Of a stretch of DNA of 64,000 nt, positions 50,907 to 53,900 are shown in pieces. Every line of letters begins with the position of its first letter. The first letter of the stretch is position 1. The DNA lies in the NCBI RefSeq assembly GCF_037975245.1, contig NC_092561.1, positions 20,959,508 through 21,023,507 on the forward strand, in the 5' to 3' direction. Below the pieces are notes generated by a model that did no database searches, had not been told where the DNA came from, and saw only the letters and a program-made list of their open reading frames with translations. The stretch comes from Apostichopus japonicus. Taxonomy: Eukaryota; Echinodermata; Holothuroidea; Aspidochirotida; Stichopodidae. A program made the position numbers and the translations under genes.

Positions 50907-53900
50907 GTAGGTCACGTATATATGGAGTCTAAAAGGGATTACGAAGTCTCTCACAAGTTTCTCAATAAATAGTAATATTATAAATCAATAAATGAATGAA
51001 TGAATGAATGAATAAATAAATAAACAAATAAATAAACATATAAATATAAATAAGAGAAACAAATAAATAAACAAATAAATAAATAAGAGAAACTCAGAGA
51101 AAACTTTGGTCCAAACGTACCCCATCTTCAAATTCTGATGCGTCGCTGAGATGTAAAAGAAATGACATTTATTTTTGTATTTTTGTGAAATTTCGAAATA
51201 GTGTGTATTTCTGGTAAAAAACATCAAACTGGATTGGTTGTCTTTGTCTTTTACTGATGCAATTAGCACCCTCTTCTATTGTTGTGTAGTTTTGATGACG
51301 TTTGTTGATTACCAGAGAACTCCTTGAATAGCATCCCGTTACATTATTTTATTTAATCATTCACCAAAGTCAAAAAGTAGTAAAGGTGCAATGCATGTAT
51401 GCCATCGCATCTTACTGCCTAATACACTCAGCCAACCATTTAAAAGTGAACAAACTACAATGTTCTATATTTCCATCTTGGCACAATTTATAGGACGCTG
51501 TTAGTTGGATCAATGCTGTTCGTTAATAAAAATCTCTACACTACATTTTCTCTTTAAATGACAGAACTGTTGGGAAGTTTCTCTCACATTGCCATGTTCC
51601 TACAAACAATTATCGTGCTAGGATTTCGTTACCTCATGGAGCAAAGTTGCTTCAGTTAATAATTTAGTTTTTGTAACCAATCATTCGTTCATTCATTCAT
51701 ATATGGTATACTCATTGCAGCCCGTAAATACTAGTGTTATGGTATACTCATTGCAGCCCGTAAATACTAGTGTTATGGTATACTCATTGCAGCCCGTAAA
51801 TACTAGTATTATGGTACACTCATTGCAGCCCGTAAATTCTAGTATTATGGTATACTCATTGCAGCCCGTAAATGCTAGTATTGTGGTATACTCATTGCAG
51901 ACCGTAAATACTAGTGTTATGGTATACTCATTGCAGCCCGTAAATACTAGTGTTATGGTATACTCATTGCAGCCCGTAAATACTAGTATTATGGTATACT
52001 CATTGCAGCCCGTAAATGCTAGTATTGTGGTATACTCATTGCAGCCCGTAAATACTAGTGTTATGGTATACTCATTGCAGCCCGTAAATACTAGTGTTAT
52101 GGTGTACTCATTGCAGCCCGTAAATGCTAGTATTGTGGTATACTCATTGCAGCCCGTAAATACTAGTGTTATGGTATACTCATTGCAGCCCGTAAATACT
52201 AGTATTATGGTATACTCATTGCAGCCCGTAAATTCTAGTATTATGGTGTACATCCACGGAGGAGATCTGACATGGGGAAGTGGTCTGAGCTATCCCGCTG
52301 ACCCTTTACCTCTAGCCGCTGTGGGGAATGTGATTTTGGTCACGTTGAACTATCGTCTTGGCTTGTTCGGGTTCCTCTCTACAGGTGAGCTTTCAATTTT
52401 GCGCTGTTGATTTCAAATTACCCTCAATAAGTCTTTCAACACTATATTAGTGCAGGGCGCTTGTGTCAATTAGGCGATCAAGGCGGCTGCCGTAAGGCCG
52501 GAAACCCACGATATGCTACTGGCAGTATTGTACTAAAAATTAATCAACTATCAACTCAAAACCTAATCATACATGGACCTTAAATTATACTTAAAATATT
52601 CATGAGAATTTACCATTTAACATCTGAAATATTTTTTTTCAGGGGGGGGGGGATAACAGTGGAAACTAAAAAATGATTGAATATGAAGTTACACGAACTT
52701 CGATGGTCAGAAAGACCTACGACTTTGATTTTAGGGGAACCATGACCCCGAACTGTTCGTCTCAAATTATGTTCGTTGTACATTCCGTTTCACAAGTGAC
52801 TCGTATAGTTTACCAAATAAAAATAGAACAAAACCGTTACCAAAGAAACTGGGCGTTTTTTTTCACGATAAAAAAGAGGAAATGTGCCCTTTTAGTTCTC
52901 GCCGTCCCAGGTTGAAAGCGCCATTGCACCAATTTACTGTACGTGCATATCACAATTCCTCTAAATCAGGGGTTCCCTAAATGGGGTGCATGAACCACCA
53001 GGGGTGCGTGAGTCCATCCCAAGGGGTTCGTGAGACGTTTCTGAAAGTCAAAAGTAGAGTACTTTTTGTTGAACAAAAATCTGATATATAATAAAATTTA
53101 GTAATGTACAAAAGTCGACAAACTCTTTTCGCGTTCCATACGCAAATGTTGCCATAGTAGTGTATGTGATAAATAACTGTGATAGATAAATAAATAACAT
53201 GTGATAAATAAATACATAAATAAATTATGAAACAGCCAAAGGCTGCATGACTTTGGTGAAGCTGGTGTAAGAATGACAGTACAATATGAACTTTATCTTT
53301 TACGAAGCACTGTTATGCGTATTATAGTATTATAATAATGACTCCGATCGTGTCTCGAAAAGTTGAGGGTTCGTGGTCAACTCTGACATCCACAGGGGGT
53401 TCGTGTGGGATAAAGTTAGGGAAACCCTGCTCTAATACTATATGAAAGTTTAAAAGAAAAGTCGTAACTGATCGAATTTTCATTCCAGTTAAATTGTCCC
53501 CACTGTTAAAAAGCAATAGCTGACCAGCATCCTCTCTAACACAATGGCGATGAAGAAGTTGGTAGGGAAACTTTGGTGCTTCATTTCTACTTTAAGTCGT
53601 TAATTTGTCATATTACTGTCTATTTTGTAACATGCCCCAGTATCAGAACTTGCGAAATATCACCTTATTGTTATCCTTATCATGTACAACTTGTATCTGC
53701 GCAATAACTTATAAACACTTCAACTTTTAATCTTCAGGGGATGAGGTCATACCACCAAACCTAGGTCTTCACGACCAACGAGCAGCTTTGAAGTGGGTCC
53801 ATGACAATATTGAAGGTTAACTTAAGACCCTTATTTTAACTTACCTTTGTAAACCTATGTTTTTTAGTGGACGTTATATAATACCAGCATTACGAGACCC

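Follow-up and report, generated by a model that had tools for sequence, protein, structure and literature searches.

Fifteen tandem in-frame 3' splice-like sites at an intron-exon boundary of an esterase-like gene in the sea cucumber Apostichopus japonicus

Introduction

Minisatellite-like tandem repeats that extend across an intron-exon boundary, named mirages, have been described in amphioxus from the globin genes BflGb6 and BflGb9 and from Adh3 (PMC3087553). The BflGb6 repeat comprises the 3' end of an intron and the 5' part of exon 2, and many amphioxus mirage repeats contain splice signals (PMC3087553). Their units measure 150-160 bp in BflGb6, 157 bp in BflGb9 and 10-72 bp in Adh3, BflGb6 haplotypes with 6 and with 3 units are on record, and regular splicing is reportedly kept (PMC3087553). 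Human CBS carries a polymorphic 31-bp VNTR of 16-21 copies at an exon-intron boundary, c.1444_1467+7(16_21), which by its name has a unit of 24 coding and 7 intron bases, as well as 844ins68, a 68-bp duplication of the intron 7/exon 8 junction that provides two competing splice sites, the distal of which is strongly favoured (PMC2630376).

Here we describe a tandem array at the intron 1/exon 2 junction of an esterase-like gene of the sea cucumber Apostichopus japonicus. It lies in a 64-kb stretch of DNA, hereafter the window (positions 20959508-21023507 of contig C1), in an assembly of 671,581,487 bases and 35 contigs. Like the BflGb6 mirage, the array repeats an intron end together with the start of exon 2 and, judged by its sequence, it is a boundary-spanning minisatellite of this known kind, though with unusual properties. 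Unlike the amphioxus mirages, it occurs in another phylum and has fifteen 36-bp units that are open and contain an N-X-S sequon each; the short unit, its length in a multiple of three, the fifteen copies, the sequon in every one and a host esterase without its serine are what is unusual here. The CBS VNTR repeats a donor in a unit of 31, not a multiple of three, whereas the sea cucumber array repeats an acceptor in a unit of 36, and 844ins68 has two copies only, against fifteen. Lievers reportedly described, in 2001, effects of the CBS 31-bp VNTR on splicing and activity. NAGNAG acceptors likewise add residues in frame through the choice of AG, but from two AGs that lie 3 nt apart (PMC2951375); with fifteen AGs spaced 36 nt apart, the present locus falls outside the NAGNAG class. 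No boundary-spanning minisatellite from an echinoderm was found in the literature searched, which does not prove that none exists there.

Results and discussion

The host gene

The array lies in a seven-exon gene of the carboxylesterase family which is intact, with GT-AG intron ends, exon phases in order and 573 aa encoded by the joined exons. All exons lie on the plus strand. Exon 1 (50511..50906), placed by similarity to paralogues, opens with ATG and ends at the donor ACG/gtaggt (the slash marks the splice boundary), the next exon starting in phase 0; by eye, its hydrophobic start looks like a signal peptide. The body of exon 2 as found in paralogues (...FLST; 52225..52384) ends at the donor CAG/gtgagc and is followed by exon 3 (53738..53815), exon 4 (55016..55134), exon 5 (56087..56263), exon 6 (56674..57272, ending ACTGG/gtaagt) and exon 7 (58700..58892, to the stop codon). 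Joined exons 1-6 match the COesterase profile PF00135 over residues 33-509 with 401.9 bits against a cut-off of 27. This score and the seven in-frame exons bear out the sequence-only reading, a set of notes made earlier from the letters of this DNA, in which an esterase gene had been placed at the junction. Among the matches listed for exons 1-6, the best among solved structures was acetylcholinesterase, and the 60 listed of 158 matched sequences were acetylcholinesterases, cholinesterases and one carboxylic ester hydrolase; neuroligins were not the closest.

The E of HEG and the H of AGH, which we take to be the catalytic acid and histidine, align with those of acetylcholinesterase. The catalytic serine of G-x-S-x-G is absent: in exon 4, GNEAG replaces the active-site G[EQ]SAG. 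A motif scan found G[EQ]SAG kept at 12 of 14 distinct sites, including the paralogues L014 and L015, and the two exceptions were the window gene (GNEAG) and L035 (GERGG). Neuroligins are without the catalytic serine as well, and the window protein shares this loss with them while being nearer to acetylcholinesterase. The product has an esterase fold and is probably not an active esterase. The gene family is large, with at least 98 exon matches and at least 89 profile matches.

Structure of the array

TRF called an array at 51702-52251 with a period of 36, 15.3 copies, 94% matches, 0% indels and a score of 967. The sequence TCATTGCAG has 15 exact occurrences in the 64-kb window, all inside the array and spaced 36 bp apart, and the first exon bases of the 15 acceptor-like sites run from 51721 (copy 1) to 52225 (copy 15). 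The fifteen 36-bp units occupy 51703..52242 on the plus strand, encode a peptide of 12 residues each and consist of exon-like ATGGTATAC, the intron end TCATTGCAG and the exon start CCCGTAAATACTAGTATT. In other terms, a unit joins 9 nt of intron end to a 27-nt copy of the exon start (CCCGTAAATNCTAGTNTT followed by ATGGTRTAC). The array is bounded by direct repeats identical at 8 of 9 positions, ATGGTATAC on the left (51703..51711, plus strand) and ATGGTGTAC on the right (52243..52251, plus strand), the latter being the native exon codons MVY. The unit spans an exon-intron boundary whose position follows from the paralogues (24 of 24 counted). The exact periodicity and the fifteen acceptors are real beyond doubt, as the earlier notes had it; their 36-bp period also stood, while the exon part has 27 bases and not about 26, and position 52224, which they had named as an acceptor, is the final base of the AG, with the exon starting at 52225. 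A DNA search of the genome with the array, in which simple repeats were skipped, returned one match, the array itself.

When exon 1 was joined to any of the 15 acceptors, the frame stayed open to the exon 7 stop, with products that range in 12-residue steps from 573 aa, for the acceptor homologous to that of the paralogues (first base 52225, plus strand, copy 15), to 741 aa for the longest form (first base 51721, plus strand, copy 1). The maximum insert of 168 residues, 12 per unit, is thus as previously calculated. Both TCATTGCAG and an N-X-S (N-glycosylation) sequon are kept in 15/15 units. The sequence-only reading was right that all copies share one frame, that the period is a multiple of three and that the frame is open into exon 2, but this does not carry fifteen-fold weight: because the period is 36, all copies necessarily share a frame, which counts as a single fact. 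Shuffled units have the given frame open 42% of the time, and a shared frame (one in three) combined with an open unit would arise by chance in about 14% of cases. The antisense strand of the array is open too (198 aa), a caution already raised in the earlier notes. Each unit also contains an out-of-frame CTAG (15 sites). Used as acceptors, 14 of them would truncate the protein to 143 aa and the remaining one to 152 aa, but all score poorly in that role (-2.4 to -5.2).

Paralogues and the homologous acceptor

The acceptor of exon 2 in the paralogues lies 21 nt (23/24) or 24 nt (1/24, L025) upstream of the codon pair that precedes the IHGG-like residues. Copy 15 lies at 21 nt, matching the paralogues, and by position its acceptor is the homologous one. 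The 24 paralogues counted are those that have an intron and in which the exon-2 motif was recognised; 10 of them have a second in-frame AG, 12 or 15 nt ahead of the codon pair, and the upstream AG was taken. Outside the count are the intronless L003, L005 and L006, L065 (N), L068 (motif not found), L019, L020, L021 and L024 (exon 2 not reached or not found), and L023, L026, L028, L031, L063, L070, L072, L082 and L083 (motif missed or a repeat of L075), the last nine of which also fit 21 nt by eye. A TRF array over the acceptor was found in none of the 24 counted paralogues, and at L076 a simple-repeat array stops about 10 nt short of it.

Arrays that end near acceptors were seen at two further esterase loci on C4. 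At L026:727-1057 an unrelated 47-bp x 7 intronic array stops 3 nt before the acceptor homologous to copy 15 and does not repeat the AG, and at L055:1332-1498 the end of a 79-bp x 2.1 intronic repeat comes within a few bases of the acceptor, on its upstream side, of a different esterase exon. Next to the exon of one paralogue, an apparent open frame of 1769 aa proved to be a run of N and was dropped.

Acceptor signals

A matrix built from 28 acceptors, 24 of paralogues and four of the window gene (some of them near-identical), scored copy 1 at 5.9 and copies 2-15 at 6.5-7.3, compared with a leave-one-out family median of 7.3 and minimum of -3.9. All fifteen acceptors look usable and none is prominent by score. 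It had been suggested that the sole convincing pyrimidine stretch lies upstream of copy 1 and that scanning could favour the longest form. The first point did not hold, the pyrimidine fraction at -20..-5 being 0.56 for copy 1 vs 0.62 for copies 2-15, and with it goes the pyrimidine argument for the second. Preference for the longest form by scanning is nevertheless arguable from a candidate branch-point cluster at 51688..51700 (plus strand; consensus match only), consisting of three TTCAT with the A at -30, -26 and -22 of copy 1, all within an AG-free zone of 51 nt. The AG-free zone of copies 2-15 is 20 nt and contains no branch-point match, their CTCAT lying at -43, beyond a CTAG; zones of just 16-23 nt are found at 5/24 paralogue acceptors. 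Exon 2 would measure 160 nt via copy 15 and 664 nt via copy 1. On a scanning model the branch-point context thus appears to favour copy 1, while exon length, paralogue position and the amphioxus precedent favour copy 15. Recursive splicing inside the array was also considered and is unlikely: the donor-like CCC/GTAAAT of the unit scores 3.96, and of 23 family donors just one is lower (1.1), a donor that had been placed one base off.

Origin and variation of the units

The exon codons PxNxxxMV of the unit have homologues in paralogues (PPNATVMVF in L007, DANATVMVF in L011), which argues that exon sequence was copied into the former intron. Since the NAT sequons of L007 and L011 stand at the corresponding place, a pre-existing sequon was probably multiplied, and the array probably grew from a site that already bore one. 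The flanking ATGGTATAC and ATGGTGTAC suggest birth by slippage between short direct repeats; it is these flanks that point to slippage, no single-copy allele having been seen among the sequences examined. Six sites vary among units. The three units that follow a GCT unit are the three GTG-first units, and the threefold recurrence of this GCT-to-GTG pair indicates block duplication. The array variants comprise 6 nonsynonymous, 1 synonymous (1.5 expected) and 0 stop changes, and look neutral-like. No variable site falls in TCATTGCAG, which has a chance probability of 0.15 and is not significant as a sign of selection on the acceptor.

The insertion site in the protein

On the joined exons any array-encoded residues would precede the IHGG strand, where the sequence-only reading had put them. 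Aligned with acetylcholinesterase, the short form shows a gap of one residue at the junction. In table coordinates, the neuroligin chains 3vkf, 7cee, 7ceg and 8gs3 match a neuroligin query only from residue 13, just past VPT, and 3vkf includes the neuroligin A1 insert (PMC7486126). The window junction lies four residues past VP, and an insert would fall in the loop equivalent to neuroligin splice site A. Neuroligins have the same fold as the window protein and carry their site-A inserts in this equivalent loop (PMC7486126), so they offer a natural precedent for a large insert here, although theirs are the cassette exons A1 and A2 (A1 of 20 residues) and not products of tandem acceptors.

An AlphaFold2 prediction for long exon 2, run with no alignment, gave nine-residue strands every twelve residues with pLDDT of about 98 over the first 130 residues. 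It was set aside as uninformative, because the antisense open frame also gives a strand repeat with pLDDT of about 90. A Foldseek search of the long exon 2 prediction against the PDB yielded 0 matches at E <= 0.001.

Competing explanations

The explanation that we prefer, and consider reasonably probable, is a mirage-type array born by slippage, tolerated in frame and with one end dominant in splicing. In the ancestor, a 27-bp segment containing the acceptor would have lain between two 9-mers of almost the same sequence, ATGGTATAC close to the intron 1 end and ATGGTGTAC in exon 2. The 36-bp interval may first have been doubled by slippage or unequal exchange between the 9-mers, and subsequent duplications of blocks would have raised the number of copies to fifteen. 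Since the unit has a length divisible by three, contains no stop and is in phase 0, an intact protein is predicted whichever copy supplies the acceptor, so the array would be tolerated wherever the spliceosome cuts. One array end is expected to dominate. We put it slightly short of an even chance that this is the 5'-most copies, which would present the first unobstructed AG after the branch-point cluster and leave most of the array coding. Dominance of the last copy, for which exon definition, paralogue position and the amphioxus precedent speak, seems rather unlikely, and a real mixture of acceptors somewhat more so. In the coding case, up to 168 extra residues, with one N-glycosylation sequon per 12, would be added to a surface loop of an esterase-like protein that lacks the serine; acceptor choice, N-glycosylation and secretion are predictions throughout.

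Were copy 15 the only acceptor used to any extent, fourteen units would be intronic and the gene would make an ordinary 573-aa esterase-like protein. Copy 15 has the acceptor position of 24/24 counted paralogues, gives the usual 160-nt exon and yields the form that aligns to acetylcholinesterase with a one-residue gap, and amphioxus mirages reportedly leave regular splicing undisturbed (PMC3087553). We nonetheless find this doubtful: only 9 nt of each unit are intron, and copy 15, 504 nt behind copy 1, has no branch-point match in its 20-nt AG-free zone, whereas the amphioxus globin units of 150-160 bp may be long enough for signals of their own (PMC3087553). At the other extreme, in the strong form of the splice cassette proposed in the earlier notes, cells might choose among the fifteen acceptors and produce a regulated ladder of isoforms in 12-residue steps. 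The near-equal local acceptor scores, the common frame of all forms and a site equivalent to the neuroligin loop with its regulated A inserts are what such a cassette would need, but it appears improbable given the lack of any sign of selection in the array, the frameshifting CTAG between neighbouring acceptors and the array-free acceptor in 24/24 counted paralogues. More improbable still is an adjustable cassette in which acceptor choice and allele length together would set 1 to 15 sequons in the site-A loop of a non-catalytic secreted protein.

It is an evenly balanced question whether the array has any function, as a minisatellite may have come to lie over the junction by chance in a minisatellite-rich genome, in a gene relaxed after the loss of its serine; this is compatible with the preferred account of slippage and in-frame tolerance and differs from it on function only. 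Arrays cover about 21.8% of the window (for example 4865-7777, 33512-36593 and 59373-61067), and among the 17 junctions of identified esterase and fibrinogen-domain exons in the window there is no enrichment of arrays (3/17 inside arrays vs 3.7 expected from cover). The neutral-like variants and GNEAG in place of G[EQ]SAG agree with an absence of function, but the rest of the gene is intact, with open exons and splice sites and phases in order. That the array is an expansion or collapse made in assembly is very improbable. Tandem arrays are troublesome to assemble, and the draft genome of amphioxus had an aberrant assembly of one mirage (PMC3087553); however, 550 bp is short for HiFi reads, from which a published A. 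japonicus assembly of 671.60 Mb in 34 scaffolds was made with PacBio (PMC10344927), and the unit variants follow one another in irregular block order.

If the acceptors are used, the locus would offer fifteen 3' splice sites of almost the same sequence, arranged by nature behind a single branch-point region, in which to study how the spliceosome selects an AG and whether distance or exon size decides. On the proposed origin, in-frame coding sequence can arise from a splice junction by slippage, and an adjustable cassette, if true, would mean a splice junction turned into a glycan-bearing variable repeat.

Other arrays and contents of the window

Two more arrays in the window straddle splice junctions, both in a gene with a fibrinogen domain (PF00147 profile). 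A 113-bp x 27 array (39377..42434, plus strand) covers the donor at 39384, where a fibrinogen-domain exon ends; it starts 8 nt inside the exon and holds 25 exact copies of TACA[AG]TAG/GTAATAAACC. The other, 68 bp x 3.9 (36916..37178, plus strand), covers what is probably the acceptor of the gene's first fibrinogen-domain exon, with 4 exact copies of TTTGTTTAG/ATGGAGCG. Outside the window, an exon ending NFAKTG in a paralogous esterase (L060:2105-2300, C4) has its donor, CCAAAACCGG/GTGAGT, repeated in a 23-bp x 8.8 array. With four such arrays in little sequence, mirages, which in the literature found are described from amphioxus only (PMC3087553), are extended to an echinoderm.

The fibrinogen-domain family is itself large, with at least 169 matches, many of them on C9, when 150 of 2731 candidates were scored. 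On the minus strand of the window, a 1030-aa frame at 43709-46801 resembles a non-LTR retrotransposon polyprotein, with endonuclease and reverse transcriptase motifs recognised by eye, and open frames at 17427-18864 resemble, also by eye, leucine-rich-repeat proteins.
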